Shown one piece after another: positions 1 through 30,814 of a stretch of DNA of 64,000 nucleotides. The translations under genes and the position numbers were made by a program. Source of the stretch: a virus. Where the stretch lies: IMG/VR virus record IMGVR_UViG_3300020438_002794, positions 23,130 to 87,129 of that record; one strand, written 5' to 3'. Position 1 is the stretch's first letter. Every line of letters begins with the position of its first letter. The notes beneath the pieces were generated by a model. That model had not been told where the DNA came from, searched no databases, and was given only the letters and a program-made list of their open reading frames with translations.

Positions 1-197
1 CACATGTACATGGTGTGTAATTGTTGGATAAAGTCAGGTGTAAAGATACGTTGACAGTCGTGTAAACTTAGTTCACTATTATCTATATGGCGGTTGTCTA
101 CACCACCATTTTCATTTCTATCGCACATTGGACATGCCGCTTGACATTTTTGTGTAATTTCCAAATGTACTGTTCTAATATCTTCATAATTATACAT
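1..197 (-). CDS. Radical SAM protein, N-terminal part (cut by window edge)
   Basis: This reading frame is open to the left edge of the window, so only the first 65 residues are visible. Cysteines at residues 18, 22 and 25 form the CxxxCxxC motif that binds the 4Fe-4S cluster of radical SAM enzymes, preceded by the usual short beta strand (HLEITQKC). The start ATG overlaps the end of the upstream 74-residue gene by 8 bases, as is usual in this operon. It is the eighth radical SAM gene of the cluster. Substrate is unknown. The family call is firm; everything beyond the cluster-binding loop is out of view. Confidence 0.85.
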   Translation of the reverse strand, partial: MYNYEDIRTVHLEITQKCQAACPMCDRNENGGVDNRHIDNSELSLHDCQRIFTPDFIQQLHTMYM

Positions 198-414
198 CTA
201 ATATTAGTTTCACATCCTTACCAGGACCTGTTTTGCTGGGCAGGTCTCCGTATGTATTTACATACCATTCGATAACTGCACGGTACCATAGTTGACTGTT
301 ATGATGTGCTTGTTGATTGAATTGATGAATATTATTGTTGGTTGCCGCCATTGCACTCAATGCCCTAGCACTTTCTATTTGTAGATCCCTAAGTTTCAGA
401 TCGTCTAGATTCAT
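190..414 (-). CDS. Small hypothetical protein, 74 aa
   Basis: I do not recognise this protein. It is 74 residues, alanine and asparagine rich in the middle, with no membrane segment and no cysteine motif. It starts in an ATGA overlap with the upstream methyltransferase-like gene and its 3' end overlaps the start of the partial radical SAM gene, so it is translationally coupled to both and is probably a real gene. It could be a small partner or substrate of the radical SAM protein that follows, but nothing in the sequence proves this. Confidence 0.6.
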   Translation of the reverse strand: MNLDDLKLRDLQIESARALSAMAATNNNIHQFNQQAHHNSQLWYRAVIEWYVNTYGDLPSKTGPGKDVKLILDV

Positions 415-1439
415 TTCTTTCCAATCAGCATAAACCTATTATAAAGTTGTGTGTCTAATTCACCTTCATAGTATATTGTACGCATCGGATATTTCTTTTT
501 TGCTTCTTTAACGTTTTTTACACAATTAATATGTTGTGAATTACTAAAATAATCATTTGTTTGTAAACACACAAAAGTATCCTTAGGTAAACGCTCAAAC
601 CAAGTTTCATCCATATGTTCACAACTGGTGTTTATAACCAGGTCAGGCTGAACCCAAATTTCCACGTTGTTGCCTTCCATATTTTTAGTTCCAACTATAA
701 AACTAGCTTCATCGTCGTAGGTGATATCATCAACATCTTGCCATACACTTTTAAACTGCCATTGGTTATTAGTTTGTACATAGTTAAAATCATCTGCCAT
801 TTGTATGCACTGAACATCTTTTTCAAGACTTAAATATTTTTTAATATCAAAATTTTGAAAGAATAACTGTGCAACAGTAGCATACCAGCCTCCGTATTGT
901 ACTACTGTGCCTAACTTGGGAGGGTGTGCTATTCCTGTTTGTTCTGTTACAATTTTTTTAAGTTCATCTACCATCCATAACTTGCTACACATTTGTCCTC
1001 TGCTGAAATGCTCATTGAGATTTGCCTGTGTTTCCCATTTAATGCACCAACTGCTGATTCTTCTGATATATTCGTCGTCGATGCAGTGTGCAATATAACG
1101 AGCTATCTTTCTATGCGTGACATATTTCCAGCCTATATGATGTGACATTAGTATGTTAATAAATTCTTCACTGAATTCGATTCGTCCTCTGTTTATTTCA
1201 CCAACTATTAATCTTTTTATTTTCCAAACATTACCATGTAATACTGCTTTTTTAATATTCATAAACATATCAAGTTGAGGATGATCAATATGTGTAAGGT
1301 ATTCTTCAATTCCGTGTATCCAAAAGAAGTCTAACGTGGGTTTGTATATTATTAATTGTTCCCCGTCTTCACCTTTGATTACCTTTTCTTCACCTATTAG
1401 GAGTTTACCGTCTTCGTTTATTTCGTCAAGTTGCGGCAT
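411..1439 (-). CDS. Putative SAM-dependent methyltransferase-like protein
   Basis: A protein of 342 residues. The central part (VVQYGGWYATVAQLFF, then a strand ending LSLEKDVQC) looks like a Rossmann-type methyltransferase fold with a degenerate glycine loop; later 'INTSCEHM' and 'LQTNDYF' resemble the post-catalytic strands of phage methyltransferases that I recall from marine T4-like genomes. The N-terminal 150 residues are helical and unassigned. Start: a TTG-ATG pair is present; the ATG at 1439 has AAGGAG seven bases upstream and overlaps the preceding gene by 14 bases. Substrate is unknown; within this cluster a sugar or peptide methyl acceptor is plausible. The assignment rests on fold-like motifs only. 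Confidence 0.5.
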   Translation of the reverse strand: MPQLDEINEDGKLLIGEEKVIKGEDGEQLIIYKPTLDFFWIHGIEEYLTHIDHPQLDMFMNIKKAVLHGNVWKIKRLIVGEINRGRIEFSEEFINILMSHHIGWKYVTHRKIARYIAHCIDDEYIRRISSWCIKWETQANLNEHFSRGQMCSKLWMVDELKKIVTEQTGIAHPPKLGTVVQYGGWYATVAQLFFQNFDIKKYLSLEKDVQCIQMADDFNYVQTNNQWQFKSVWQDVDDITYDDEASFIVGTKNMEGNNVEIWVQPDLVINTSCEHMDETWFERLPKDTFVCLQTNDYFSNSQHINCVKNVKEAKKKYPMRTIYYEGELDTQLYNRFMLIGKK

Positions 1440-2130
1440 CAAATGTCTCCTTTAACCATTCAAAATCATTAATTAAATTTAATGTTTTTGCATTATTTCT
1501 ATATGTTCGACCAAAGTCAGTACCTTGTGTTGCACCTAGTATTGCGTATTCACCGTTCTGTCTATTAGCACCTTTGCTTTGCCATACTTTTAATCTATAC
1601 TCATTGTCAGTGTTGTCACCGTGTTCGATAATAGCACTGGCTAGTTTAGTACATTCTCTAAACGCACTGCGCCATGCATTAAAAGGATCTGTATTAAACG
1701 CTGTGATGTTACTGATTTGAAACTTGGGAACAAATGGACAACCTATACTTGTAGTCATATCCACATTCCAGTCTTTTGCATCTAATAGTGCTTTGCGTGG
1801 GAACAGCTTTGCACCACCATATCCGTACAATAGATCATTCACTGGATTTTGACTGCGCCATACAAACACACAATCAGTTTCGTATACGCCGGGCCATTGT
1901 TCTTTGCGAGGTCCTGGTGTAAAATTAAAATTAAACTGTTCGTCTATAATAGCATCAGCATCAATAACATAAAAGTTTCTAGTTTCTGCTAGTTTTGCCG
2001 CGGCTTTGTGTGCCGCAAAAATACCTTCAACACCCTGTACACGCTTGGCGTGGGGTGCGAACAGTTGCAGTAATTCAAAATTGTCATCAGCATATGGCTC
2101 ATGATAGCTAATCTGAATAACATCTAACAA
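1426..2130 (-). CDS. Glycosyltransferase-like protein, paralogue A
   Basis: A protein of 234 residues with an N-terminal ISYHEPYADDNF segment, an AAHKAAAKLAET helix and a YVIDADAII strand; the DAD resembles the metal-binding DxD of GT-A glycosyltransferases. It is clearly paralogous to the product of 23925-24902, which shares ISYDEPNAEQNW, AAHKAAAAIAET and ITIDADNIV, plus the W-R-(A/S)-(A/G)-FRE segment. The only start with a ribosome site is TTG at 2130, with GGAG nine bases upstream. It is the first gene after the promoter at 2155-2182 and overlaps the next gene. Transfer of a sugar is inferred; donor and acceptor are unknown. Confidence 0.55.
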   Translation of the reverse strand: MLDVIQISYHEPYADDNFELLQLFAPHAKRVQGVEGIFAAHKAAAKLAETRNFYVIDADAIIDEQFNFNFTPGPRKEQWPGVYETDCVFVWRSQNPVNDLLYGYGGAKLFPRKALLDAKDWNVDMTTSIGCPFVPKFQISNITAFNTDPFNAWRSAFRECTKLASAIIEHGDNTDNEYRLKVWQSKGANRQNGEYAILGATQGTDFGRTYRNNAKTLNLINDFEWLKETFDAAT

Positions 2131-2154
2131 GTTTTATTTCTCCATATAACTTTT

Positions 2155-2182
2155 ATTATACATGTTAATTGTAAAATGTCAA
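2155..2182 (-). promoter_or_regulatory. Consensus sigma70-type promoter inside the accessory cluster
   Basis: On the minus strand TTGACA (2182-2177) and TATAAT (2160-2155) are both exact, with a 16-base spacer. It lies in the only sizeable gap of the cluster, just after the 37-residue gene, and would fire into the TTG-started gene at 2130 and the genes beyond the left edge. It suggests an internal second transcript of the cluster. Confidence 0.75.
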
Positions 2183-2296
2183 CTACTCATATATAAATGG
2201 ATCTTTGTCCTTTAGTTCTTTCATTTTCTTTTTACGCCATTTGTACTCTTTGTATTTGGTCCAAGGTAAAAGAATAAAATCAATTATTGTTTGCAT
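2183..2296 (-). CDS. Small basic protein, 37 aa
   Basis: A short gene that a length cutoff would miss. It begins with a hydrophobic segment (MQTIIDFILLPW), continues with an aromatic and lysine/arginine-rich stretch (YKEYKWRKKKMKEL) and ends DKDPFIYE. I recall similar tiny proteins ending in 'DPF(I/T)Y' in marine T4-like phages. The start ATG overlaps the end of the epimerase gene by 13 bases and the stop falls next to the -35 box of the promoter at 2155-2182. The amphipathic start with a basic tail suggests membrane association. Function unknown. Confidence 0.7.
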   Translation of the reverse strand: MQTIIDFILLPWTKYKEYKWRKKKMKELKDKDPFIYE

Positions 2297-3228
2297 AGTT
2301 GCTCCTTTATATATTCTATAGTATGCATTAATCCCGCCTGTCTGTCAACAGTGGGTTCCCACCCTAAACAGTCACGGGCAAGTTGAATATCCGGACAACG
2401 TTTGTTGGGATCATCTACTGCACTGGCTTGATGCACTATTTCACTAGTACTATCAGTAAGTTCAACAATCTCTTGTGCTAATTCAATTAAACTAACTTCG
2501 TCTGGATTCCCTATATTTACAGGACCTGCATGGTCACTGTTCATAAGTTTTATTAATCCTTGTACAGTATCAGTTACATAACAAAAACTTCTAGTCTGTA
2601 GTCCATCACCGTGTACAGTGATTGGTTTATTTTGCAATGCTTGTATTATAAAATTACTAACTGCTCTACCATCATTCAGTGCCATGTGTGGTCCATATGT
2701 GTTGAATATTCTGGCAATAGTTGTATCAGCACTGCTGATAGTACACATGGTTTCTGCTACACGCTTGCCTTCATCATAACAAGCACGTGGTCCTAGTGTG
2801 TTTACGTTGCCCCAATATGTTTCTTTTTGTGGATGTTCAAGTGGATCACCATATACTTCGCTGGTGCTTGCTTGTAGCAATCTAGCGTCAGCTTGTTCAG
2901 CCACGCTCAACATGTTGATCACACCTTCCATGTTGGTCATCAGTGTGTTCCATGCATCGCTTTGATAGTGTACAGGACTAGCAGGGCAAGCTAAGTTGTA
3001 TATTTGTTTAAGCGGATCAAACTTTCCCATTAGTTGATAATCGTGCAAGGGAATTTTTATGTCCTGTTCAATAAAATAATAATTATTTTTTCCTCTGAAC
3101 TGTAGTAAGTTATCCGCTGATCCTGTGTAATAGTTGTCCACAGCAATTACAATCTCACCTTGTGCCAACAGTTGTTTACACAATTCAGTTCCTAATAATC
3201 CTGCGGCTCCTGTTACCAATATGGTCAT
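2284..3228 (-). CDS. NAD-dependent sugar epimerase/dehydratase, UDP-glucuronate decarboxylase-like
   Basis: An extended SDR enzyme of 314 residues. The NAD-binding TGAAGLLG lies at residues 6-13, and the catalytic pair is visible in ASTSEVYGDP followed by CYDEGKR (Tyr-x-x-x-Lys). The segments YNLACPASPVHYQ, RIFNTYGPHM, and GDGLQTRSFCYV are those of UDP-glucuronate decarboxylase (UXS), which makes UDP-xylose; related 4,6-dehydratases cannot be excluded. The ATG at 3228 gives an ATGA overlap with the upstream glycosyltransferase; an ATG three codons upstream also exists. It would supply an activated sugar to the glycosyltransferases of the cluster. Confidence 0.88.
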   Translation of the reverse strand: MTILVTGAAGLLGTELCKQLLAQGEIVIAVDNYYTGSADNLLQFRGKNNYYFIEQDIKIPLHDYQLMGKFDPLKQIYNLACPASPVHYQSDAWNTLMTNMEGVINMLSVAEQADARLLQASTSEVYGDPLEHPQKETYWGNVNTLGPRACYDEGKRVAETMCTISSADTTIARIFNTYGPHMALNDGRAVSNFIIQALQNKPITVHGDGLQTRSFCYVTDTVQGLIKLMNSDHAGPVNIGNPDEVSLIELAQEIVELTDSTSEIVHQASAVDDPNKRCPDIQLARDCLGWEPTVDRQAGLMHTIEYIKEQLCKQ

Positions 3229-3968
3229 ATATACCAATATCCCAATCGTTTTAAACTGTCGATTTTTGCTGTATCTCCTAAATACTCTTGTGTGTTATCC
3301 CAATCTTTGTATGCATATTTTCCAGTCACATGAAATATATGCCAATTTTCTGCACGTTCGTAGTTGTGTCCAGTGGGAAACAATGTAGGCTCTAATAAAT
3401 CTATTCGTGTTTTTGTGTGTTTGATGTGGGTATTAACAAATAATTGACAGGTACTATCGTAACCGTTAGCATACAAGTAATCTGTATCACACATACTTAT
3501 GTTTATTGGAGTTGCCCTCATTCCGTACATGCCTGTACCACAGTTGTAATCACCGTGTGCTTTTATGGGGTCGCCCAGCCAAGCATACTGCTTGACACTT
3601 TGACATATTTGTTCTGCACCATTGTTAAACATTTGTCTTATGTGAACTGTGTAATCTTTTTGTGCAACACAATCAACATCAGTATAAAACCAATTTAATC
3701 CACACTGCATAATTTGTTGACCTACAATAAATTTATATACAAACACATGATGATCACCTTGTGGTATGTATACTGTGGGAACACGGCTTTGCATTGCACT
3801 ATAACTTAGTGAGTCCAATGCTACATACAATAAATCGATACCCAACTGTTTGCAGTTTTCAACCCAGTTCATAGCCAATGGTAATACTGTTTGGTCTCCC
3901 ATACACCAGAACACTGTGTCTGTACCATATTTTAATTGTGTGCAATATTCTTCAATTGACTTTGGCAT
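3225..3968 (-). CDS. Glycosyltransferase, nucleotide-diphospho-sugar transferase type
   Basis: A protein of 247 residues. The segment VLPLAMNWVENCKQLGID, then LYVALD, an AMQSR element, and NWFYTDVDCV fit the GT-A type nucleotide-sugar transferase family that includes GT77-like proteins; DVD is the likely metal-binding motif. The start at 3968 is chosen because AAGGAG sits six bases before that ATG; a longer frame would overlap the upstream gene by 77 bases. It overlaps the UXS-like gene downstream, which fits a donor-supply and transfer pair. Donor and acceptor are not deducible. Confidence 0.75.
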   Translation of the reverse strand: MPKSIEEYCTQLKYGTDTVFWCMGDQTVLPLAMNWVENCKQLGIDLLYVALDSLSYSAMQSRVPTVYIPQGDHHVFVYKFIVGQQIMQCGLNWFYTDVDCVAQKDYTVHIRQMFNNGAEQICQSVKQYAWLGDPIKAHGDYNCGTGMYGMRATPINISMCDTDYLYANGYDSTCQLFVNTHIKHTKTRIDLLEPTLFPTGHNYERAENWHIFHVTGKYAYKDWDNTQEYLGDTAKIDSLKRLGYWYI

Positions 3969-6264
3969 TTCGATCTCCTTGATAAAATGCTTGCACACTA
4001 ACAGTGTCTTGACTTTGTGCTTTAGCACGAATAGGACCCATGCCGTTGGGTATGCCTGCTTGTTGATCTGCTACAGTTTGATTTATTATTAAACTTATTA
4101 TATGTTCATAACTGTCCATAAACTCTGTGTCACCCGCTTGTATATCAATGGGTTTGCCTTCTGTTATCCATGTTTGCACAACTTGTTCAAGTGTTGTGCG
4201 TTCATCTACTTTGCCAATAATATATCTATCGTTGTTTGCTCTATCCAAAAAGCCTGCTTCTCTACACAAGTAAACCAATCCATATGCATCAACTACTAGG
4301 TCAACTTGTGGAAATCCTTTGGGTAGCATTTCTTTTTCTGTAATACAATGCATAGTGGGTGCATCTATTCCCTGACTTAATGCATTTAATGCATAGCCAT
4401 AATCAATATGCAATTTATTCAACAGTTCGCCTTTGCGTCTTTGTTCTACTAGAGCAAACACTTGTTTAAGTTTTGTTCTATCTCCAAATGTTGAGGTATC
4501 AGTTGGCTCTCTGAAGTTCTCTCTCAGTGTAATAAAGTCAACTTGGTTACCACTGTCATGATTAATTTCTTCAATAAAATCTAGAACTTGTAGTAAATCT
4601 TCTTCTAGTCCTGGCAGTATAACATAATTAAATCCAAATCGCAATGTTTTATTATTCAATTTTTTATAACGCAAGAAGTCTGTTGCATTTTGTTTTATGC
4701 GTTCAAAGCCTTTCTTGTGTTTGGTCACTTGTTCATATACCGTCTGATTGCTTCCATACAAACTTATACGCAACACTTCAAGTTTAAACAAATCTGGGTT
4801 TGCATCAACAAACTTTTCAGTTAGCATGAATCCATTTGTATACAAGCTAAACTTGAATCCTCTTGCATGTCCAGCACTAATTAATTTCATTAAATCAGGA
4901 TTGGTAAGTGTTTCTAACCCGCCACTCAAATAAAACTTGTAAGGGTCGTCGTTAGGTGCAGTGTTTAACAGGTTAACCAAATGAGGAGTAGCTTCCTTTA
5001 GTTGTGTCTTTTTGTATGCGGCATTTGTATCCATGTTACGACCACAAAACGTACACCAGAACATACAACTTTGTCCAATGTGTAGACCTATTCTATGTGG
5101 GTATCCGTATTGATTGTTTAATACTTTTTGTATAGTACCTGATTGATTTAAAGGTATTATTGTATTATTCCAATATTGACTGTTTCTAATATCATCAGTA
5201 ATTACCTGTTGCACAAAGTCACTGTTTCTTAATATTCGATTAATTTCAATAATTTTAGGTTGACTTAGCTGTAACTTTTGTTGTATACTTGCCTGCTTTA
5301 CAAATGGATCAGCACTGTAACAGTCAATTACACCCAAACATTTTTCTAATGTCCAGTCCAACTGTTGGTCATATCTACTATGTGCTATCCCACTAGCAAT
5401 TATATCACGACTCAAATAAAGTCCTAGTATCTGTTTACGGTCAAACTCCGTGTGATGTCTAATAATATCCAAATGTTGTTCGTGCAGTTGTTGTACACTT
5501 TTAACTATAGTTTCAGTTACCCAACGAGTGTTGTCTGCGGTATTCAATTGCACAATACCATTGACAAATGCTTCAAGTTGTCTATCTAAAGTTTTACCAT
5601 CATCTTGGCTGAAGTCATACTCAACTCCATCTATGCTGATCGAACGTTTGTTCACACTGTCACGTTCAAAACTAACATTGACTACAGTACCAGCAAAGTC
5701 TAATAACCAAAGTATACCCTGACTGGTTTGTTGTGTTTGTAAAACTGTGCAGGTTTGTTTGCTGATTATTTTTCTTAATATGGTCAATACATGCGGACCT
5801 ATATCTTCTAATACACTGATAGTAGGATCACTTACATATGTGCTTCCGTGTCTTTGAACATTGTTTGCACTGTTCCATGTTATATCTATTGTTTTGGGTT
5901 GTTCAACTGTAGCGTCAGCTATCTCTTGTATGCGATTGCTGTATTCTAATTCTAACCCAACTACCAGTTTACATTTGTTTTTGTGTGCTAGGTCAACCAA
6001 TTGATCATGTTGCTCCACGGAGCGAACAAACGGTTTTTCAACCAGCAAGTGTCTACCATCTGCAAGTAATTCTACTGCACTAGCATAGTGATCATCTGGT
6101 AAGTTGGCAATCCACACATGTTTGCCTGTGAGATTGAGCAAGTTATCCACACTCGCTAGTTTTGTGTTATGAGTATAATACTCGGTTTGATATTGATTGT
6201 TTGTTGCAACACGATCTATTATTTGAGCCCAACGTCCACCGCCTACTATTCCGAGGGTACGCAC
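3952..6264 (-). CDS. Gfo/Idh/MocA oxidoreductase fused to a radical SAM enzyme
   Basis: A two-domain protein of about 770 residues. Residues 1-330 look like a Gfo/Idh/MocA sugar oxidoreductase: a GIVGGGRWAQ Rossmann loop at 5-14 and the family motif EKP at 76-78. From about residue 385 on there is a radical SAM domain with CMFWCTFC near residue 400, SGGLETL in the SAM-binding position, and YTNGFML. The radical SAM half recalls sugar-acting enzymes such as DesII, but that is inference. GTG at 6264 is preferred because GGAG lies seven bases upstream; a TTG at 6291 is the alternative. Both overlap the carbamoyltransferase gene. A single polypeptide joining sugar redox and radical chemistry is unusual. 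Confidence 0.85.
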   Translation of the reverse strand: MRTLGIVGGGRWAQIIDRVATNNQYQTEYYTHNTKLASVDNLLNLTGKHVWIANLPDDHYASAVELLADGRHLLVEKPFVRSVEQHDQLVDLAHKNKCKLVVGLELEYSNRIQEIADATVEQPKTIDITWNSANNVQRHGSTYVSDPTISVLEDIGPHVLTILRKIISKQTCTVLQTQQTSQGILWLLDFAGTVVNVSFERDSVNKRSISIDGVEYDFSQDDGKTLDRQLEAFVNGIVQLNTADNTRWVTETIVKSVQQLHEQHLDIIRHHTEFDRKQILGLYLSRDIIASGIAHSRYDQQLDWTLEKCLGVIDCYSADPFVKQASIQQKLQLSQPKIIEINRILRNSDFVQQVITDDIRNSQYWNNTIIPLNQSGTIQKVLNNQYGYPHRIGLHIGQSCMFWCTFCGRNMDTNAAYKKTQLKEATPHLVNLLNTAPNDDPYKFYLSGGLETLTNPDLMKLISAGHARGFKFSLYTNGFMLTEKFVDANPDLFKLEVLRISLYGSNQTVYEQVTKHKKGFERIKQNATDFLRYKKLNNKTLRFGFNYVILPGLEEDLLQVLDFIEEINHDSGNQVDFITLRENFREPTDTSTFGDRTKLKQVFALVEQRRKGELLNKLHIDYGYALNALSQGIDAPTMHCITEKEMLPKGFPQVDLVVDAYGLVYLCREAGFLDRANNDRYIIGKVDERTTLEQVVQTWITEGKPIDIQAGDTEFMDSYEHIISLIINQTVADQQAGIPNGMGPIRAKAQSQDTVSVQAFYQGDRNAKVN

Positions 6265-7727
6265 ACTTCTACTCCGTACTGCTTGGTCCAACGATCAGCA
6301 TCTTCTCTTGTGTTAACTAAAGGTTCTCCCTTTATGTTTAAACTTGTATTCAATAACATAGGACAGCCTGTGTCTGCATACCAACGTTCTAGCAGTTTTC
6401 TGAATCCGCTATTATCAGTAGTAGATACTGTTTGAACTCTGCTGGTGTCATCGTAGTGGACGATTGCTGGAAATTTGTCAGGTCTTTTACACGTTGAAGT
6501 ATATTGCATGTATGGGCCTGTGTAACCTGTGAAATAATCTCCGGCATGTTCAGCGAGTATGGCTGGGGCAAAGGGTCTGAAACTTTCTCTGTGTTTGATA
6601 GTGTTAACAAGGTCTTTGACATCATCTCCGCGGGGATCAGCAAGAATACTACGGTTGCCAAGAGCCCTAGGACCAAACTCAGCACGACCACTGGCAACTG
6701 CTGTAATTTTCTTTGACTGTAAATTTTTGAGTATGTTTTCAACTGGATACTCTCCTTTAATATTATGTCCCAAATAAGGACCGGGCCATTCAATATGATG
6801 TCCCCAATGTGCTAGTACACAACCTACTGCACTGCCACTATCACCTGGGTTTGGCATAATCCAAACATCTTTAAAGTACTTATATGCAATACTGTTGGCA
6901 CTACAATTTAATGCACAGCCTCCCATCAGTACTAGGTTTTCTTTTTGAGTTGCATATTTTGTATACATAACTAAACCATCAAAAATTTCTTCGTATATAC
7001 GCTGTACTGCGGCGGCAATGTCAGCATAGTCTTGTGGTGTGTTTAGATCAGGTCTCCAATCTAAACAACCTCTATGACAGTTGCGTTTGAATAGTGTATA
7101 AGGGCTCCAACGTGTAGGTGAAAATTCAATAAAATCATTCTTTATGTCCTGGTACAACCTATCTGGATCGCCCACAGCCGCCATGCCCATGAGTATGTAT
7201 TCATGTTCTTGTGGCTTTAGTCCTATACGCTGTGTCATAGCACTGTACCATATACCTATACTGTGTGGATAACGTTGACTCCAAGTTTTTTTAAGACTAT
7301 CACCTTCGCCTGTCCATATACTAACAGTATCCCATTCACCTATACTATCTATATTCAATATAGCCGCATCAGTATAAGGTGATGTATAATATCCTGCGCC
7401 AGCATGGGCATGATGATGACTAGTTGTAGTGCATTTAGGCGCATCTTTTAGGAACTTGCGTACATATGTAGTAGGTGATTCTTTGCCTAGTAGTGCGTAT
7501 TGCTTTGAATACAGTTGGCGTGTCTTTTTAAGTAATGGTTTCTCATAAAAATATATTTTGTATGGCTCGCCATAATCAAGAGCTTCATCGATTAAGTCTT
7601 GATTTAAGTTTTTATCATTCTTAACTCTACTGTAGCGTTCTGCATGTGCCGCAAACACTAGTTTTTTATCTCCAAATACTGCTAGGCTGGCATCATGTGC
7701 CATGCCTGTCCAGCCCCATGTGATCAT
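6246..7727 (-). CDS. Carbamoyltransferase, NodU/TobZ family
   Basis: A protein of 493 residues that transfers carbamoyl groups onto hydroxyls of sugars or secondary metabolites. The N-terminal ASKHA/Kae1-like domain shows HHHAHAGAGYY near residue 105, the metal-binding histidine cluster, then ILNIDSIGEWDT and GGCALNCSAN. The C-terminal YrdC-like part shows GRAEFGPRALGNRSILADPR and HRESFRPFAPA, both highly typical. It starts in an ATGA overlap with the 62-residue gene. Carbamoyltransferases occur in other marine T4-like phages; here the gene sits amid sugar-modifying genes, so O-carbamoylation of a glycan is the likely role. Confidence 0.95.
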   Translation of the reverse strand: MITWGWTGMAHDASLAVFGDKKLVFAAHAERYSRVKNDKNLNQDLIDEALDYGEPYKIYFYEKPLLKKTRQLYSKQYALLGKESPTTYVRKFLKDAPKCTTTSHHHAHAGAGYYTSPYTDAAILNIDSIGEWDTVSIWTGEGDSLKKTWSQRYPHSIGIWYSAMTQRIGLKPQEHEYILMGMAAVGDPDRLYQDIKNDFIEFSPTRWSPYTLFKRNCHRGCLDWRPDLNTPQDYADIAAAVQRIYEEIFDGLVMYTKYATQKENLVLMGGCALNCSANSIAYKYFKDVWIMPNPGDSGSAVGCVLAHWGHHIEWPGPYLGHNIKGEYPVENILKNLQSKKITAVASGRAEFGPRALGNRSILADPRGDDVKDLVNTIKHRESFRPFAPAILAEHAGDYFTGYTGPYMQYTSTCKRPDKFPAIVHYDDTSRVQTVSTTDNSGFRKLLERWYADTGCPMLLNTSLNIKGEPLVNTREDADRWTKQYGVEVCVPSE

Positions 7728-7912
7728 AATTCGGTCTCATTCATATTAATACATATAGCCTGTTGTCCTGCTTTGAAGTATCCTGCACCTCTGCCTACTT
7801 CTTCACTGAGAGCTTCTCTTGCATAAAAACATTCGTTCATATCTCTATGTTGACTTACTTTTTCTACATAAGGAGTTGCATCATAAAAATATACAAATAC
7901 CAATACCCACAT
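7724..7912 (-). CDS. Conserved small protein, 62 aa
   Basis: It begins with a hydrophobic strand (MWVLVFVYFYD), then PYVEKVSQHRDMNECFYAREALS, a glycine-rich turn, and GQQAICIN. I recall close relatives of this 60-residue protein with the same N-terminal strand and the C-x(2)-AREQL element in marine T4-like phages, always without a function. The TAATG overlap with the nucleotidyltransferase stop and the ATGA overlap with the carbamoyltransferase start support expression. The N-terminal hydrophobic stretch is too short for a confident membrane helix. Confidence 0.7.
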   Translation of the reverse strand: MWVLVFVYFYDATPYVEKVSQHRDMNECFYAREALSEEVGRGAGYFKAGQQAICINMNETEL

Positions 7913-8304
7913 TAAAGGTCGCCTCGCTCTCTCATTTCAGCACGAATTTTTGTAGCACTTATGTTGTGTACACGTTCGCCCAAGTCATGCTCAGTAAAAG
8001 TATAACCTACTCCTCTGCCATAACTGATATCCACAATATTAGGAACTAGCATTACTTCAAAGTCTTCGCCAATAATATAACCTTTTGTATATAGACTACC
8101 AGCAATATCATTTTCTACTTGTTTAAAATCAAACGGATTATCTACGTTTCCCATTCCGGCATCAGCACCTTGTACATCACGAACCATAATTAATACTTGT
8201 CCTGTAATCCCTAGTGCCTTTTCAAAAAGTATTGTATGCCCTTCATGCCAAGGTTGCCATCTTCCTAGTAGTTGTACTGTTGGTTTTTTATAATCAAATA
8301 CCAT
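7912..8304 (-). CDS. Nucleotidyltransferase, HxGH type, possible ATP-sulfurylase-like
   Basis: A compact cytidylyltransferase-superfamily protein of 130 residues. GRWQPWHEGHTIL at about 14-26 carries the HxGH nucleotide-binding motif and ISATKIR near the C-terminus matches the ISxTxxR motif. The superfamily includes NMN and CTP transferases and ATP sulfurylase, whose equivalent segment is RNPVHxGH. The gene overlaps the APS kinase gene by 11 bases, so generation of adenylyl sulfate (APS) is an attractive inference, but the protein is far smaller than cellular ATP sulfurylases and another nucleotide transfer remains possible. Confidence 0.75.
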   Translation of the reverse strand: MVFDYKKPTVQLLGRWQPWHEGHTILFEKALGITGQVLIMVRDVQGADAGMGNVDNPFDFKQVENDIAGSLYTKGYIIGEDFEVMLVPNIVDISYGRGVGYTFTEHDLGERVHNISATKIRAEMRERGDL

Positions 8305-17137: not shown

Positions 17138-17880
17138 GCAAAATGTTCCTTGCAATAATTGTAGAACTCTATGTCCTTTGTTGTTGTTTCTTTCACTAGT
17201 TGTTTCTCAACGTCTGTTAGTTCCTCATAATTTACATAGTCAATACCATGTTGACTTAAATTAAACTTTGTATTATGCTCATAGCTAATACTTAGATTGG
17301 GTTTCAGATCATACTGCTTGGCTACTTTATCAAACTGTTTTAAGTAATTATCCTCCATAAAGAACATATGATCTAGTTTTTGTATATTCTCAATAGCTTG
17401 ATCATATAGTTCTTGTTCATAAACGGTATCAATTTTCCTTCCGTAATCAATACGCAAACATTGTTCATTACTGAACTTCTGATATTGTGCATATACAGGA
17501 GTTGGATGTAATCTACTACAATTAATAATCCAAGTTGTAAAGTCAATATCAGTAATACAACTATGCACGTTAATTATTTCTAACTTGAAATAATTGTATG
17601 CACTCATGATCCGTCTGACAGGATCTCTTAGTATAGTAGCATACTTTACAGGATTTTGCAAGTGTTTATCTAAATCAAAGCTAACGCCATGTCCAATTAT
17701 CAAACTAACCTTTTGATCTTTGCAATCTTCTATTAGAACTTTATACTGATTGGGTTGTCTAAAATTAAACACTAGTTCTTGAGCAACACGTTGATAAGCA
17801 AATGTACTATTTGTTCTATATCTGTTTACTAGAGTGGTTCCTCCATTTTTAAGTATATGAAATACTGCTAGTGTTTCCAT
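17134..17880 (-). CDS. Sulfotransferase-like protein, 248 aa
   Basis: The N-terminus VFHILKNGGTTLVNRY fits the 5'-phosphosulfate-binding loop (KxGGTT) of carbohydrate sulfotransferases, and ILRDPVRRIMSAYNYF near residue 85 is the 3'-phosphate-binding motif (RDPxxR-x3-S-x-YN). It is paralogous to the 278-residue protein upstream, which it overlaps by 13 bases. The donor would be PAPS, which the APS kinase at 8294-8719 could provide. No signal peptide is seen, so transfer in the host cytoplasm is expected. Acceptor unknown. Confidence 0.88.
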   Translation of the reverse strand: METLAVFHILKNGGTTLVNRYRTNSTFAYQRVAQELVFNFRQPNQYKVLIEDCKDQKVSLIIGHGVSFDLDKHLQNPVKYATILRDPVRRIMSAYNYFKLEIINVHSCITDIDFTTWIINCSRLHPTPVYAQYQKFSNEQCLRIDYGRKIDTVYEQELYDQAIENIQKLDHMFFMEDNYLKQFDKVAKQYDLKPNLSISYEHNTKFNLSQHGIDYVNYEELTDVEKQLVKETTTKDIEFYNYCKEHFA

Positions 17881-18704
17881 TTGTCTTCACACCTTTTGAA
17901 AAATTCTATGTCTGCTTGTAAATCTAATTCAACAAGATATTTTAAGTCTTCGTCTAGTTGATGATACTTAACATATTCTAAATTGTGTTTGCTTAAATCA
18001 TGGCTTGTTTCATTTGTATAAATCATTTCTTCCCATGCATCTAAATCTAATTTATAGTGTGCTAGTAAATCGTCAAACCTTTCAACTATGTCGTCTTCTT
18101 GGAAAAACACATGATCCATTTTACTCATTACTCTTTCCCAAGTGATATTCATATTGTGTGTTTCAATTTGATTTTTTTCTTTTATCTTCTGCTGTATTTT
18201 TGCGTTGTCAACATAGCTTGTGTCTTTTTCAACGTCCCATGTAAGCACTGTGTTTAGATACATGTCGTTCATTGTAAACGTATTTTTTAACGTTCCGGCG
18301 TCGAACCAATCAGTGTGTTCTACATGTTGATACAAATAGTATTCGTACTGTTTTGTAACTGGCATTGGACGTAGCACATCTTTGTTTATAAACCACATAT
18401 AAAAATCAATGTCAGGACTGTCTGGGTTCATATACAGCATTTGTGTACGATAAAAATTGTACATGCTCATTATTCTACTGATAGGATCTCTCACACAAGT
18501 TATATAAACTAAGTTGTTAGAAAGTTTTTCTTCGTAGTATCCTATTTGTACACTGTGTCCAAAAACTACACTTGCTTGTTCTGTAACTTTATCACCAAGG
18601 TCAGTAATTCTAAAACTACTGTTGGTATTTCTGTATCTTTCTTTGAGTGTTGTTCCGCCTGTTTTAGGACAATGAGGAAAGATGATAATATTACTTTGAT
18701 TCAT
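17868..18704 (-). CDS. Sulfotransferase-like protein, 278 aa
   Basis: FPHCPKTGGTTLKERY at residues 9-24 is the PAPS 5'-phosphosulfate loop, and ITCVRDPISRIMSMYNFY near residue 90 the 3'-phosphate-binding motif. VFFQEDDIVERFD near residue 210 is shared with the paralogue downstream (MFFMEDNYLKQFD), as are the C-terminal D-LSKHNLEYVKY and I-(E)-F-(F/Y)-K elements. Two complete paralogues in tandem suggest two different acceptor positions. The start overlaps the preceding sulfotransferase-like gene by 14 bases. Confidence 0.9.
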   Translation of the reverse strand: MNQSNIIIFPHCPKTGGTTLKERYRNTNSSFRITDLGDKVTEQASVVFGHSVQIGYYEEKLSNNLVYITCVRDPISRIMSMYNFYRTQMLYMNPDSPDIDFYMWFINKDVLRPMPVTKQYEYYLYQHVEHTDWFDAGTLKNTFTMNDMYLNTVLTWDVEKDTSYVDNAKIQQKIKEKNQIETHNMNITWERVMSKMDHVFFQEDDIVERFDDLLAHYKLDLDAWEEMIYTNETSHDLSKHNLEYVKYHQLDEDLKYLVELDLQADIEFFKRCEDKWKH

Positions 18705-19248
18705 TGTACACTCCGGTTTGTATTTTTCTTTTACACTTTCTTAAAAAATTATAATCTATACTGTTAGCTACTTGATAGTCTCCTCGTAGTGCAGTGTCGA
18801 GCTCATTACTTTCAAATCTAGTGTTAAAGTTCAAAAGTGGATAATCTGTTTTTAAATACTTGCTGAGTCTTTGTGAAAGAATTTCCAAAGTAAAATCATC
18901 ATGATTCATAACTTGTTCTTTTGGATAAAGAGATCCTTTAGTAGGGTTCCATGTGATATAATTAATAAACCCTATAAATTTGTAATTTTTTTCTTCAATT
19001 TCTTTAGTTTCACTAGTGTGTATATCTAAACTTGTAGTAATTACATTTCTTTCTTGAAACACTAACTCTTCAAAAGTTTTACCCTTAGAATCTCCTCCAC
19101 TGTCTAAAAAATCCATTGTTTGTTCTATAGCTCTATCAAACGGATCTCTGAATATTAAAATGTCAGCATTTTCTGTTACTAGCTCTAAGTTGTATATGTT
19201 TGCAATCTGTTCATGCCAGCAGTTTGGAATATAATGTAATTTATTCAT
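18691..19248 (-). CDS. Degenerate sulfotransferase-like protein, 185 aa
   Basis: This protein lacks the N-terminal K-x-GGTT loop that both neighbours have; it starts MNKLHYIPNCWHEQIANIYN. It keeps ILIFRDPFDRAIEQTMDFLDSGG near residue 32, which resembles the 3'-phosphate-binding RDPxxR segment of sulfotransferases. It may be a non-catalytic paralogue, a member of a divergent subfamily in which the cysteine-tryptophan-histidine opening replaces the loop, or only superficially similar. It overlaps neighbours on both sides (ATGA with the radical SAM gene upstream). Confidence 0.5.
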   Translation of the reverse strand: MNKLHYIPNCWHEQIANIYNLELVTENADILIFRDPFDRAIEQTMDFLDSGGDSKGKTFEELVFQERNVITTSLDIHTSETKEIEEKNYKFIGFINYITWNPTKGSLYPKEQVMNHDDFTLEILSQRLSKYLKTDYPLLNFNTRFESNELDTALRGDYQVANSIDYNFLRKCKRKIQTGVYNESK

Positions 19249-20282
19249 ACAGCTACCGCTTCTTTAAACTTGCTTAGTATCAAATCAGTATTGCAAAAAC
19301 AACTTGTCTTTTCACATGTGTATGCATAAGCAGGCATTCTAAAAGTCCTAAGATTCTCTATATGTCCAAGCCACCTTATAGTACCATTTTCATCTTTACC
19401 TTCAGGTAAACATGCGGCTCCACTAATATATCCAAGTTCATTGACAAATAAACCATCTATACCAGCATTACACTTCCATCCTTTGAATTGATTTTTCTTT
19501 GAAGCATATAGTCCGTTTGTATCTAATATAGTTTCTTCTTTGTATCTGCCATCAGCCATTTTATAAACTGCTGTAGCATCAATTGGCATACTGTACTGTT
19601 CAAAACTAACATCTGGGTTACCAGTTTTTCTTTTGAATGCTAGTTTCTCATCAATCTTTGCTTGCTGTTCTTTTGTGTATACATGTGGTCTTTCTTTCTC
19701 TGTTAACCAATCAGCAACAATAGGAACTTTCTCTACAAAAAACTGTCCCATATATGGTTGTGTTTTTAGTATTTCAAAAAACTCAATACACTTATCAAAG
19801 TATACTTGTTGTGGGTGCATCATAATACGCACTCCTAATAGTGTATAAGGCCAAAGTGTATCAATAACTTTAACACAATGTTTTAAACTTGTTTTCTCAC
19901 TGTGAAAACTAAAACTTACCCAACGAAAACTTTCTTTGTGCTTTTCCCAAAATTTAAGACTTTTGCTTCCGTTTGTTGTCAATCCAATTTGTACCTTTTC
20001 TTCTACTAACCAGGTTAGGAAATCATCGAATACAGGCAATGCTGTAGGTTCACCGCCAGTAAAACTTATAACAAGTTCTTCATCTTCATTGAGATAACTT
20101 TTAATTTTAGTTACAAATGCTTTGTATACTTCTAAGTCAAAAGCAGGACTACTACCTTCGTAATTGTAAGGGTGGCAGTATGCACAACTGAAATTACACT
20201 TGTTGGTCAAGTTCCAGTTTACATGAAAGTATTTGTTATACTTTTGTTTGATCTCAATAAGTTCTGCACTATCCGACAGCAT
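19245..20282 (-). CDS. Radical SAM protein with C-terminal cysteine-rich domain, 345 aa
   Basis: Cysteines 29, 33 and 36 (CNFSCAYC) form the cluster motif, followed by ISFTGGEPTAL and TTNGSKS. SFSFHSEKTS is a typical later strand. The C-terminal part has WKCNAGIDGLFVNELGYISGAACLP and TCEKTSCFCN, a SPASM/twitch-like pattern. The arrangement of the C-terminal 'CFCN' resembles the cysteine block in the MORN-radical SAM protein at 13737-15080 (CKTKACFCD), so the two may be related. The start overlaps the upstream unknown gene by 14 bases. Substrate unknown. Confidence 0.92.
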   Translation of the reverse strand: MLSDSAELIEIKQKYNKYFHVNWNLTNKCNFSCAYCHPYNYEGSSPAFDLEVYKAFVTKIKSYLNEDEELVISFTGGEPTALPVFDDFLTWLVEEKVQIGLTTNGSKSLKFWEKHKESFRWVSFSFHSEKTSLKHCVKVIDTLWPYTLLGVRIMMHPQQVYFDKCIEFFEILKTQPYMGQFFVEKVPIVADWLTEKERPHVYTKEQQAKIDEKLAFKRKTGNPDVSFEQYSMPIDATAVYKMADGRYKEETILDTNGLYASKKNQFKGWKCNAGIDGLFVNELGYISGAACLPEGKDENGTIRWLGHIENLRTFRMPAYAYTCEKTSCFCNTDLILSKFKEAVAV

Positions 20283-21282
20283 CTACTTTTCCCTCGGTAA
20301 GTTTATAGCCGCTAACTTGATTAAAGTCTGGATCTGGAACTATATCAAAACTTCCAACTTTTAACATTCCCCAGGTTAGCATATCAAATTTGTTACGAGT
20401 ATCAGTCTTTTTAATTTTATAACCACCCCAGTAGTTGTCTAAACTATAATTTAAATGATCTACTGCTTCTTCATGTGTTCTTGGATCGCCACACCAAAAC
20501 ATTAGTTGACTGGTGTAACAGCAACATTGTTCTAGTAAATCAAAACTACTACTGGTCATTTTGATAGCATTGTATTTGTCATCATCATACATTTCGATCA
20601 TCACGTTATCATAATCGTACCCTATTTGTGTAGGATATAAAAATATCTCGCCTGGATTTCGTTCCATACTAAAACGATCAACCCATTCATCTTCTAAATA
20701 ATGAAACTGTTCACCAAACTTCAATCCAAAATTTTGTAGATTTGTTTCTTGTGTAACAGTTGTTGTTACGTCTCTTAATACTTTGAGTGAATGGAAAATA
20801 TCAACCAACTTTTCAATATGTCTCGTAAGTCCTTGGTCATTTAGAACACGATAGATTAGTATACATTGTGTTTGCATAGGATTAAGTATATCCTGGTGTA
20901 CTATTAGCCCCCATTGGTGATCTATTTTTCCAGCATCCATTTTATACCATTCTTGTAATGGAATAAACTTTTGCAAAGTATTATCAATCTTAGTAAATGC
21001 TTGTCCACTACTCATTACGGTGTGTCCTAGTATGTCACTCAACGGTATGTTGTCAGTTTTGTATGCATCTGCAATTTCATTCCATTCTTCTATTTTATCA
21101 TTGAGAGCAGGAATGATTTCGTATAATCTTTCTAATGCTTGATGAACCAGATACACATTCCAATGTGTTATATATGGTTTACCGATAATATCTAACTCCA
21201 ACTCAAACCAGTCTGCAAAGATATCGCATTTGATTAGTTGTTTTTCTTTTTTATCGTTTTGTAATTCAAGCTCAAACTTCAT
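20269..21282 (-). CDS. Unknown protein between radical SAM genes, 337 aa
   Basis: I do not recognise this protein. It has a beta-rich start (MKFELELQNDKKEKQLIKC), a helical centre, and a segment LLEQCCCYTSQLMFWCGD near residue 250 with three consecutive cysteines and a fourth nearby. No signal peptide or membrane segment is visible. The ATG at 21282 has GGAG five bases upstream and overlaps the preceding radical SAM stop by 11 bases, so the start is well supported. Lying between radical SAM genes and overlapping both, it may be a partner protein or carrier for them. Confidence 0.75.
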   Translation of the reverse strand: MKFELELQNDKKEKQLIKCDIFADWFELELDIIGKPYITHWNVYLVHQALERLYEIIPALNDKIEEWNEIADAYKTDNIPLSDILGHTVMSSGQAFTKIDNTLQKFIPLQEWYKMDAGKIDHQWGLIVHQDILNPMQTQCILIYRVLNDQGLTRHIEKLVDIFHSLKVLRDVTTTVTQETNLQNFGLKFGEQFHYLEDEWVDRFSMERNPGEIFLYPTQIGYDYDNVMIEMYDDDKYNAIKMTSSSFDLLEQCCCYTSQLMFWCGDPRTHEEAVDHLNYSLDNYWGGYKIKKTDTRNKFDMLTWGMLKVGSFDIVPDPDFNQVSGYKLTEGKVDAVG

Positions 21283-22570
21283 ACTTGCTCCATAGTTTAT
21301 AAAGCTCTGCAAAGTCAGAATTGAAGTCTGTTTTACGCATTGTATCTATACTGCGAATATATTTGTTGAGGGCGGGCCACTTGTCGCTCCAATCCTCGCT
21401 ATTCATAAAGTTTGTCATATTCTTTAATTCTTGCACTTTATTCTTTTCTGGGTATTTCAGCATGAAGTTATCAATTTTTTCTGTTATAATTTGTTTCATT
21501 TCCTTAGGTAATACTTTAGCACACATGTACTGTGGATAGTGTAACACGCCAGGATGAAACATTCCTTGGTGATCATGTATTCCAATTTTTTTATAGTTTT
21601 GATCAAACAAAAACTGTGCAAAGTCTGGCAAATACCAAATGTTTAATGCACTTACAGTACACAATACTTTACCAACAATATGGTCAGCCGCGTTTTCTAC
21701 TTTGTCCAGTGTTTCGTGTACAGTTTTCCAATTAGTTGGATAGCGTAACCATTTGTTCATTTCGCCTATGCCATCTATACTAAGCATAAGTTCTACAAAC
21801 TTAAAGTGACCCCAAAGTTCTAATATATCATCTGGCATAATAGTACCATTGGTATGATAGCGTAGTTCTATATGTTCAGCATGTCCACTTTCGACACATT
21901 TCTTTAAGAAACGTCTGTGGTTCTTTAAATATAAAGGCTCGCCGCCTGCAAATATAAAGTGACGCATTCCGGCTAACAATGGATCTATCTCTTGTTCCCA
22001 AAACTCATCATCAGCGGCCCAGTCATATTTGTTGTTGCAATGGTCTTGTATTTTCCAATCCCAGTCACCTTTTACTTCAGGATTGTCGTGACTTAGATCT
22101 CTAATCTTTTCTGCATCTTTGACCCATTTACTAGAGTCAGTTGGTCTACACATAACACATTGTACATTACAAGTATTACCTAACCGTAAATCTAATGTAA
22201 TAACATCTTGATCCAAACTGCCATCTTCGTTAGTGCTGGCTATTAGTTCGTCAACATATTCTCTTGTTAATTTCTTTACCCATAGATTGTTTTCATTCAT
22301 TCTATGACTACGAATACCTGCCGCTTCTTCTTTCCAGCAATGCATACATGCTTTTAGTGCTTTGCCGTTGAGCATATCTTTTCTAGCATTTTTCCAATAG
22401 TAACTGTTCCATACTGCATTTATATCAGCATTGTTTAAGTTAATACGTTGGTCTTGTGTAGGCTGAGCTAGACAGCAAAGCAAAGCTGTGCCGTCTGTAT
22501 AAGTTGCCATGTGCATCCATGGAAGAATACAAAATTTCTTTCCATAGTCTTCCAAAAAATCTTGTGCCAT
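21272..22570 (-). CDS. Radical SAM protein with N-terminal twitch domain (copy 2)
   Basis: About 432 residues. The N-terminal domain reads KFCILPWMHMATYTDGTALLCC, then NAVWNSYYWKNARKDML and ACMHCWKEE, the twitch-type Fe-S module found at the N-terminus of a family common in marine phages and metagenomes. The core motif CNVQCVMC lies near residue 143, with IFAGGEPLYL, HTNGTIMP and LSIDG following. It is a diverged paralogue of the product of 22570-23922, which sits directly upstream with a TAATG junction. Substrate unknown; the pair may act in sequence or as a heterodimer. Confidence 0.93.
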   Translation of the reverse strand: MAQDFLEDYGKKFCILPWMHMATYTDGTALLCCLAQPTQDQRINLNNADINAVWNSYYWKNARKDMLNGKALKACMHCWKEEAAGIRSHRMNENNLWVKKLTREYVDELIASTNEDGSLDQDVITLDLRLGNTCNVQCVMCRPTDSSKWVKDAEKIRDLSHDNPEVKGDWDWKIQDHCNNKYDWAADDEFWEQEIDPLLAGMRHFIFAGGEPLYLKNHRRFLKKCVESGHAEHIELRYHTNGTIMPDDILELWGHFKFVELMLSIDGIGEMNKWLRYPTNWKTVHETLDKVENAADHIVGKVLCTVSALNIWYLPDFAQFLFDQNYKKIGIHDHQGMFHPGVLHYPQYMCAKVLPKEMKQIITEKIDNFMLKYPEKNKVQELKNMTNFMNSEDWSDKWPALNKYIRSIDTMRKTDFNSDFAELYKLWSKYEV

Positions 22571-23922
22571 TATTCTACCAACTTTCTAACATTTTGATAC
22601 AAGTCATCATCAACAATACTAAAGTTGGTATTACGCTGTCTGTCCCATACTTCTGTCATCTTCACAAAGTCTTGTAATTGTTCTTTCCAATTATCTAACT
22701 GTGGTTGTTCCAAATATCCTACGATACCATCTACACTATTCTTAATTAACCAGTTCTTCTCATATAATATATTACACTGTTCTTTAAATTCAAGCAATCT
22801 ATTTTTTGCATTCTGTCTCATTTCAACAGGAAGATTTCTCACATCTAAATACGGAGGATGTGTATTAATTAATATGTCAACACCAATACTTTTCCATTCT
22901 ATTTCTGGCTTTCCTGCATAAAATTCTTCGCCTAACTCGTGTGCAAGCCATAGTATTTCGTGTATTCGATTTATGTTGTAGATTTGTAGTACAGGACTTA
23001 TATTGCTAGAAACGTTTGGTAAACTTAATATGCTTCTATAGTTTCTAAGTATAATGTCCCAACTCTTAGTGCCTCGTATAAATTCATTTACAACGCCTAC
23101 ACCATCTAAACTAGCATTGATGTCTACACTTTCAAATTTACCAATACTATCCAAAAACTTTTGATTAGCATTTGTACAGTTGGTATTCATAAACACATTA
23201 ATATGTTTACTATGACCTTGTTCAGCGGCATAGTTTAAAAACTGCATGTTGTTTTGAATCATAGTTGGCTCACCACCTGTCATGTAAACTTTTCTTAGTT
23301 TAGGCATCCATTCGTATATGTCTTTCCAAAAATCATCAGCATCAAACTTTTCTCTGTATTCTTTGCTGTTGATCCAGTCTGGACGTTTGCCGTATGTTTT
23401 CTCTTGTATTCTGGTATAGTCCTCTTCAACATCTGTGAGCTTGGCATCTTCTTTAGCAATAGTACTACTGTTAAAACTGTTGCACATTCTACAACTAAGA
23501 TTACACAAGTTACCCAAACGCAGGTCCAAGTAAAGAGGATCGTGTTCTGGTAATGCAAAGTCATTATTATAGCTTGCTTCAATGCGTTCATGAATAGCTT
23601 CTTCGCCTATACGGCGTTCCCATTCCTCATTGTGCATTTGTCTGAAACTTTTTTTACCTACTTCTTCTTGCAGGTAACAGTGTTTACAACTACTAACTTG
23701 TTCTCCTTGAATCATAGTCATGCGTATATCACGCATGTCTTTATCATTCCATGCTTGCTTTAGTGTTGTACTATTGATATCTAAAATTTTGCCATCATCG
23801 CCACGTAGTACACTGGGTTTGGCAATACAGCAAAAGTCAATACTTCCACTGGTATTCACCATCATGCTTAACCAAGGGTAAACACAAAATGTTTCCCCGT
23901 ACAATTCATCCCAGTCTGCCAT
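22570..23922 (-). CDS. Radical SAM protein with N-terminal twitch domain (copy 1)
   Basis: About 450 residues. FCVYPWLSMMVNTSG-SIDFCC, LKQAWNDKDMRDIR and CKHCYLQEE make up the N-terminal twitch module; CNLSCRMC near residue 148 is the radical SAM motif; YMTGGEPTMI, NTNCTNAN and ASLDGVG follow. Shared with the next gene are DLRLGN-x-CN-x2-C-x-MC and the general layout. The gene begins three bases after the glycosyltransferase-like gene's stop. Identity as a twitch-type radical SAM protein is firm; function is not known for this family as far as I am aware. Confidence 0.94.
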   Translation of the reverse strand: MADWDELYGETFCVYPWLSMMVNTSGSIDFCCIAKPSVLRGDDGKILDINSTTLKQAWNDKDMRDIRMTMIQGEQVSSCKHCYLQEEVGKKSFRQMHNEEWERRIGEEAIHERIEASYNNDFALPEHDPLYLDLRLGNLCNLSCRMCNSFNSSTIAKEDAKLTDVEEDYTRIQEKTYGKRPDWINSKEYREKFDADDFWKDIYEWMPKLRKVYMTGGEPTMIQNNMQFLNYAAEQGHSKHINVFMNTNCTNANQKFLDSIGKFESVDINASLDGVGVVNEFIRGTKSWDIILRNYRSILSLPNVSSNISPVLQIYNINRIHEILWLAHELGEEFYAGKPEIEWKSIGVDILINTHPPYLDVRNLPVEMRQNAKNRLLEFKEQCNILYEKNWLIKNSVDGIVGYLEQPQLDNWKEQLQDFVKMTEVWDRQRNTNFSIVDDDLYQNVRKLVE

Positions 23923-23924
23923 GC

Positions 23925-24902: not shown

Positions 24903-24905
24903 AGT

Positions 24906-30174: not shown

Positions 30175-30184
30175 ATCTTATTCC

Positions 30185-30787: not shown

Positions 30788-30806
30788 TGTTCTTTCCATT
30801 ATAATG

Positions 30807-30814
30807 TATTTATA
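30807..30814 (-). promoter_or_regulatory. T4-type late promoter TATAAATA
   Basis: On the minus strand the exact octamer lies at the very 3' end of the giant gene (overlapping its stop), 20 bases before the preferred start of the next gene. It would be read by host RNA polymerase carrying gp55 and gives the three distal structural genes their own late transcript. Confidence 0.7.

Follow-up and report, generated by a model that had tools for sequence, protein, structure and literature searches.

The window analysed here, a stretch of 64,000 nucleotides, comprises bases 23130-87129 of the 87,129-base IMG/VR record IMGVR_UViG_3300020438_002794 and carries part of a gene island dominated by radical S-adenosylmethionine (rSAM) enzymes in a phage of the jumbo T4-like group. 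Positions refer to the window unless the record is named. Enzymes of this superfamily perform chemistry open to few others, and to our knowledge phages are not usually expected to encode a complete radical pathway. The record is an 87-kb linear fragment; as both of its ends are open, it probably derives from a larger genome. T4-type genes for tail and baseplate proteins, a late sigma factor, an SbcC-like protein and the portal are found in the right half of the window. The portal groups the phage with the jumbo T4-like phages PA5oct, 121Q, Atu_ph07 and Phosso and is distant from those of the Pelagibacter and cyanophage T4-likes. The two marks of the jumbo T4-like group, a portal in the PA5oct/121Q/Atu_ph07 group and a T4-type late sigma factor, are both present. 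The island lies downstream of a giant virion gene and two tail genes (Table 1).

A first-pass annotation, made from the letters of the window, had called eight rSAM genes. All eight are open, lie on the minus strand and carry CxxxCxxC where it had been placed. Seven pass the cut-off of Pfam family PF04055 as they stand in the window (3952-6291, 10718-11992, 11946-12740, 13737-15110, 19245-20282, 21272-22570 and 22570-23922), and the eighth (1-197), split by the window edge, passes as a complete gene of 360 amino acids (record 22244-23326; 37 bits). Two start coordinates differ slightly (3952-6291 had been given as 3952-6264, and 13737-15110 as 13737-15080), the other sites being as first given; in 13737-15110, conservation places the start at Met11 of the long open reading frame (ORF). 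The exact motif occurs in a single other ORF of the window, a spurious antisense one, and the eight motifs are therefore not due to chance, an explanation also ruled out by the agreement of profile scores, conservation and selection. The extra SPASM or twitch cysteines proposed for several products are borne out by SPASM matches above cut-off in four of the eight.

The count of eight is correct for the window and an underestimate for the whole record, which holds 18 PF04055 matches (17 above cut-off). All except one of these 18 genes lie within record 10337-47051, a run of 36.7 kb and 38 genes that is entirely on the minus strand, has few gaps and continues on from the tail genes, just downstream of them. 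Two modules make up the run. Module A (record 10337-25259) lies for the most part to the left of the window and consists mainly of rSAM genes, and its core is formed by three of them (record 20822, 22244 and 10337) with a glycosyltransferase-like family (24555/47054) and an uncharacterised family (23540). Module B (record 25413-47051, within the window) holds the sugar-type genes and, as a set, has so far been seen only in this phage lineage. At its left end, which is variable, the island has a B12-binding-type rSAM gene on the opposite strand (L001 5663-7144).

The block is conserved in other phages. In the sister phage, a 108-kb contig (NZGL01000008.1, our L028) binned with a gammaproteobacterial metagenome-assembled genome (MED685), every gene of record 10337-47051 is matched in the same order at about 37-93% identity; the sole part of the island to be replaced is its far left (record 5663-10340). 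Five further IMG/VR contigs carry part of the block with its order kept, one of them (G007) diverged to 34-79% identity, and a sixth extends just to the block edge. The ratio of nonsynonymous to synonymous substitution rates is about 0.04-0.4 in the relatives compared, and CxxxCxxC is retained wherever the sequence is readable; the block genes are under purifying selection. Two sister genes seemed to have lost the cluster motif; this was ruled out, as the gap there consists of ambiguous bases. The genes are thus co-inherited as an ordered block, and the objection that they might not occur together in other phages fails. As a genetic unit, the proposed pathway is well supported. The first-pass claim of a full pathway holds for one co-inherited block; a single product is not established.

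Five perfect sigma-70 promoter sequences occur in the record, where 0.2 are expected. The one that heads module A is kept in four relatives, perfectly in two and with one mismatch in the other two. A 37-amino-acid ORF, MQTIIDFILLPWTKYKEYKWRKKKMKELKDKDPFIYE (2183-2296, minus strand), ends just ahead of this promoter; its end is kept in four relatives, and the ORF has no match in deposited phages. Cores of the T4-type late promoter, TATAAATA, are below the chance number overall, and four of the five are located 8-44 nt before structural genes. At 61545-61572 a perfect sigma-70 promoter precedes the portal gene with the late motif TATAAATA in its spacer, and the same is seen in the sister phage. 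Since a sigma-70-type match stands before the portal gene as well, the timing of island expression is unsettled. This bears on the proposal that the pathway acts in infection to remodel the O-chain or capsule of the host envelope and so exclude other phages, rather than to decorate the virion. The perfect sigma-70-type promoters at the head of module A and before the sugar module, at conserved positions, would suit it, as would the view published on the glycosyltransferases that pelagimyophages carry in their host-recognition clusters (PMC7029224). However, the portal promoter means that promoter type is no proof of early timing, and the block continues from late tail genes; we consider envelope remodelling unlikely.

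The glycan nature of the pathway is supported by the sequences of one strong enzyme and several of its neighbours. The enzyme, encoded at 3952-6291, scores 352 bits (E 4.5e-105) against TIGR04426, the DesII equivalog; as the cut-off is 450 bits, we call it DesII-like and not DesII. Its C-terminal half aligns with DesII, a nucleoside diphosphate (NDP)-amino-sugar ammonia-lyase (PDB 8hzv), over 384 residues that include the cluster motif (E 6e-73). Unlike DesII, the phage protein is fused to a Gfo/Idh/MocA oxidoreductase domain. DesII yields a 3-keto-4,6-dideoxy sugar, and so the fused oxidoreductase would plausibly reduce the 3-ketone. The fusion has no match among 50,697 deposited phages. Around its gene lie those of a short-chain dehydrogenase/reductase (SDR), a nucleotide-sugar transferase-like protein, a carbamoyltransferase, a split kinase/nucleotidyltransferase and a HisC-type aminotransferase, together with methyltransferase-like and sulfotransferase-like genes. 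Inside the rSAM run, record 11602-12150 encodes a homologue of methylthioadenosine/S-adenosylhomocysteine nucleosidases (PF01048, PNP_UDP_1, 64 bits, cut-off 25) whose ME and SD motifs align with those of solved enzymes; it stays below the NCBIfam equivalog cut-offs and at the enzyme level is nucleosidase-like only. By sequence it fits the removal of 5'-deoxyadenosine, a known inhibitor of rSAM enzymes (PMC8102628).

The twitch enzymes are less readily assigned. Across the record nine proteins, including two from the window, pass the 170-bit cut-off of NF033640 (N_Twi_rSAM), which gives this one phage nine diverged members of a family for which the sources examined hold no tested function; the product of 10718-11992 reaches 70.5 bits and falls outside it. 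All ten twitch proteins together were too diverse for a pattern scan, which used the orthologues of one gene and one paralogue. Simple tandem expansion within the phage was ruled out for most of the N_Twi copies: in a tree with several long branches the nine do not form one clade, and their relatives in other phages and in bacteria are separate ones, except for the recent pair 13829/15021. In 13737-15110 the auxiliary Cys domain precedes the rSAM domain, whereas in relatives (weak pairwise score) it follows. For the N_Twi enzyme 21272-22570, the best PDB matches of the predicted structure (predicted local distance difference test, pLDDT, 89) are maturases of sactipeptides and other ribosomally synthesised and post-translationally modified peptides (RiPPs), BlsE and viperin, all at low template-modelling (TM) scores; DesII and anSME rank lower, also at low TM-scores. 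The superfamily fold is clearly recognisable in this model, and the substrate class is not. A viperin-type antiviral enzyme was rejected, as no island protein scanned exceeds 51.6 bits against NF038283 (cut-off 180). The model of 23925-24902 shows a weak resemblance to the GT-A glycosyltransferases TarS, TarP and WrtF.

Twitch and SPASM rSAM enzymes commonly have peptide substrates. Here they might modify tail-fibre or giant virion proteins or a ribosomal peptide, by crosslinks, epimerisations or C-methylations, the sugar genes being a separate, co-located pathway. Three observations would agree with this: the RiPP maturases CteB, SkfB and SuiB are among the top fold matches of the N_Twi enzyme of the window; the tail locus of cultured relatives has rSAM genes and uncharacterised proteins with no clear sugar genes; and module A, made up mostly of rSAM genes, is headed by a promoter of its own and is found more widely, separately from the sugar module. 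However, the likeness to peptide maturases is at the superfamily level only, and one of the recurrent partner families is GT-A-like. A precursor peptide with conserved leader and variable core was not recognised, though no dedicated search was made; neither of the small conserved ORFs (74 and 37 amino acids) has a leader-plus-core look. We regard peptide modification as a possible explanation that is rather on the improbable side. The first-pass role in a decorated glycan stands for one deoxysugar-type rSAM enzyme amid sugar-tailoring genes. For the other rSAM enzymes a glycan action would be conjectural, as would the destination of the product; RiPP maturases lead the structures nearest to the twitch enzyme of the window.

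The features of the window are collected in Table 1. Among the tailoring enzymes, the carbamoyltransferase, the aminotransferase, the FkbM methyltransferase and the epimerase are solid. The sulfotransferase-like proteins stay under the Pfam cut-offs and carry (P)KxGGTT and RDPxxRxxSxY motifs, and the glycosyltransferases are weak by sequence. The neighbouring genes at 7912-8728 are two halves of one phage family, phrog_10255 (kinase and nucleotidyltransferase), and MORN-like repeats are N-terminal in both the rSAM protein 13737-15110 and the methyltransferase-like protein 15704-17155.

Table 1. Genes and promoter sequences of the window, with the evidence for each call
Position	Strand	Feature	Evidence or remarks
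1-197	-	rSAM, 5' part, CQAACPMC	core triad member common to other phages and Bdellovibrionota
190-414	-	small conserved 74-amino-acid protein ahead of rSAM gene	70-96% identity in relatives, 57% in L140
411-1442	-	uncharacterised protein, recurrent partner family	present at 40 of the 70 viral rSAM loci; unmatched in Pfam and PDB
1426-2130	-	glycosyltransferase-like, first gene of module A	family of 23925-24902; GT-A-like fold of that relative
2155-2182	-	perfect sigma-70 promoter, TTGACA-16-TATAAT	25 nt before gene 1426-2130
2284-3237	-	NDP-sugar epimerase/4,6-dehydratase-like SDR	PF01370 142 bits; TIGR01181 109 bits, under its cut-off
3225-4028	-	nucleotide-diphospho-sugar transferase-like	PF03407 23.3 bits, cut-off 22
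3952-6291	-	rSAM: Gfo/Idh/MocA oxidoreductase and DesII-like domain, CMFWCTFC	PF01408, PF04055, TIGR04426, PDB 8hzv
6246-7727	-	NodU-type carbamoyltransferase	PF16861, PF02543; phrog_1601
7912-8304	-	nucleotidyltransferase-like half of phrog_10255	
8294-8728	-	kinase half of phrog_10255, AAA_33/APS-kinase-like	
9073-9101	-	perfect sigma-70 promoter	one at corresponding place in G002, G039, G003, G004
9230-10075	-	SGNH-hydrolase-like	GCSFSxG motif only; no Pfam match
10062-10721	-	second SGNH-like protein	GCSFSMG motif; no Pfam match
10207-10214	-	T4-type late promoter core TATAAATA	at corresponding place in G002, G039, G003, G004
10525-10552	-	perfect sigma-70 promoter	also in G002
10718-11992	-	rSAM, N-terminal SPASM/twitch, CNLYCPSC	
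11946-12740	-	rSAM, C-terminal SPASM, CNATCWFC	79-93% identity in relatives
12719-13819	-	HisC-type pyridoxal-phosphate aminotransferase	PF00155; TIGR01141 135 bits, under its cut-off
13737-15110	-	rSAM, MORN-like N-terminus and permuted N-terminal auxiliary Cys domain, CNYDCAYC	
15067-15723	-	FkbM methyltransferase	PF05050
15704-17155	-	MORN repeats and methyltransferase-like domain	
17134-17880	-	sulfotransferase-like, KNGGTT and RDPVRRIMSAY	Pfam score under cut-off, motifs
17868-18704	-	sulfotransferase-like, PKTGGTT and RDPISRIMSMY	Pfam score under cut-off, motifs
18691-19248	-	shorter protein with RDPxxR, possibly sulfotransferase-related	sequence only
19245-20282	-	rSAM, C-terminal auxiliary Cys domain, CNFSCAYC	
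20269-21312	-	uncharacterised protein confined to this phage lineage	
21272-22570	-	rSAM, N_Twi NF033640, CNVQCVMC	384 bits, cut-off 170; model pLDDT 89
22570-23922	-	rSAM, N_Twi NF033640, CNLSCRMC	356 bits, cut-off 170
23925-24902	-	glycosyltransferase-like, recurrent partner family, invariant DxD	alignment; model pLDDT 89
25870-27688	-	two glycosyltransferase-like proteins (25870-26784 and 26777-27688)	between tail genes and island; sequence, no Pfam match
29263-30799	-	two tail-fibre-type genes anchoring the island	relatives of both precede rSAM cassettes in Phosso and Atu_ph07
30810-42104		virion-type gene	one product of 3764 amino acids

Thirty other viral records were found through island genes, a sample biased towards rSAM carriers, and all 30 carry 4-22 rSAM genes (median 12). 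A T4-like portal is present in 13 of the 21 tested, spread over several jumbo-group lineages. In the controls, PA5oct and P-SSM2 have no rSAM gene, 121Q and HTVC008M have one each, Phosso and Atu_ph07 four each and Vibrio phage K566 six. The core families of module A have homologues in many of 70 other viral loci, with up to 87% identity for 10337, which points to exchange of the core between phages. The core N_Twi gene has three matches among the 50,697 deposited phages, and this near-absence suggests that the chemistry was missed for lack of cultures.

The same module A core is found on Bdellovibrionota chromosomes at 41-66% identity, and 30 of 114 sampled genomes of that group have NF033640 matches above cut-off, often a dozen or more. 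Each of the Bdellovibrionota L029-L041 has from a dozen to about thirty N_Twi rSAM matches, and some of these matches form separate dense arrays. That the bacterial loci are hidden T4-like prophages was ruled out in two Bdellovibrionota genomes checked, which have no T4-like portal. No functional clue was found among the gene neighbours of the bacterial core. The contigs behind L043 (filed as Acidimicrobiaceae) and L045 (filed as Chloroflexi) may be phage too. Comparable rSAM arrays on chromosomes, together with a size and enzyme diversity like those of a secondary-metabolite cluster, would be compatible with an island product that is either a modified nucleotide or a small, diffusible inhibitor or signal molecule, but carrier proteins, condensation enzymes and exporters were not seen among the island Pfam matches, and we judge such a product very improbable. 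A DNA-modification pathway was set aside, no base-modification enzyme being seen.

Among cultured phages, Phosso (Sinorhizobium) and Atu_ph07 (Agrobacterium) carry an rSAM cassette downstream of a giant virion gene and two homologous tail genes, as here; their giant virion genes, of about 13.5 kb, occupy the corresponding site and likewise lie ahead of the cassettes. Because the cassettes sit at the same place, the tail-locus position of rSAM genes is ancestral or a hot spot. Their content differs: the rSAM genes number just 3-4 and are distant relatives, at most, of those of the island, and sugar genes are not evident.

The first-pass view that marine phages are known to carry only single twitch genes is outdated. 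A T4-like marine genome with 12 rSAM genes, TARA_ERS488813_N000010, was reported in 2017 together with Fe-S assembly genes (PMC5332604). It resembles the present phage as a marine T4-like phage with many rSAM genes, and in this respect the present phage is of a kind already known. The rSAM genes of TARA_ERS488813_N000010 were not reported as a co-inherited block or pathway (PMC5332604), and no A-type Fe-S carrier was found in the present record. The present data go beyond that report with 18 rSAM genes, their conservation in order, a core that is shared and a lineage of jumbo phages. A 2020 study described a pelagimyophage host-recognition cluster in which glycosyltransferases and rSAM cassettes form a variable island beside the tail fibres (PMC7029224), like the present island. 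Pelagimyophages are relatives of HTVC008M, whereas the present phage belongs by its portal to the jumbo T4-like group and its island is dominated by rSAM genes. A description of rSAM islands as a conserved pathway was not found in the literature searched, most subscription journals being outside its coverage.

Taking the evidence as a whole, we read the island, which lies at the tail-fibre or host-recognition locus of a jumbo T4-like phage, as encoding a pathway to an unusual surface glycoconjugate, and give this reading about an even chance of being right. Several points weigh against it. A sugar-specific relative is seen for just one of the 18 rSAM enzymes, and this one stays at 352 of the 450 bits of TIGR04426; a C4 aminotransferase of DegT type was not seen; glycosyltransferases and sulfotransferases are called here from motifs and weak scores; peptide maturases head the list of nearest structures, at low TM-score, for the N_Twi enzyme of the window; and the rSAM cassettes of cultured relatives have no obvious glycosyltransferase.

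In the mechanism we propose, the SDR would form a keto-deoxy NDP-sugar, whose aminated form would come from the host or from another enzyme. The DesII-like domain would take off the C4 amino group by means of the 5'-deoxyadenosyl radical to give a 3-keto-4,6-dideoxy sugar, and the fused oxidoreductase would reduce its 3-ketone. Glycosyltransferases would then transfer the sugar, and the sulfo-, carbamoyl-, methyl- and aminotransferases would decorate it, while the twitch rSAM enzymes (N_Twi and relatives) would tailor unreactive C-H positions of the glycan or of a polypeptide carrier. The nucleosidase would clear 5'-deoxyadenosine and S-adenosylhomocysteine, both inhibitors. The product and target we infer: the most likely carrier would be the tail or virion surface of the phage itself, and the next most likely the host envelope.

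Tentatively, we suggest that uncultured jumbo T4-like phages possess a modular radical-enzyme system at the tail locus whose mobile three-rSAM core has been exchanged between them and predatory Bdellovibrionota, and which may build a class of surface glycoconjugate or modified protein made by no characterised pathway. Widespread large aquatic phages give tens of kilobases to rSAM enzymes beside their host-range genes. The question can already be tested in the cultured phage Phosso, whose host is a harmless rhizobium and whose small rSAM cassette occupies the same locus. If surface decoration is indeed the function, the island would give access to novel chemistry of deoxy-sugars or peptides, and it could account for the way in which such phages handle recognition or avoid defence.

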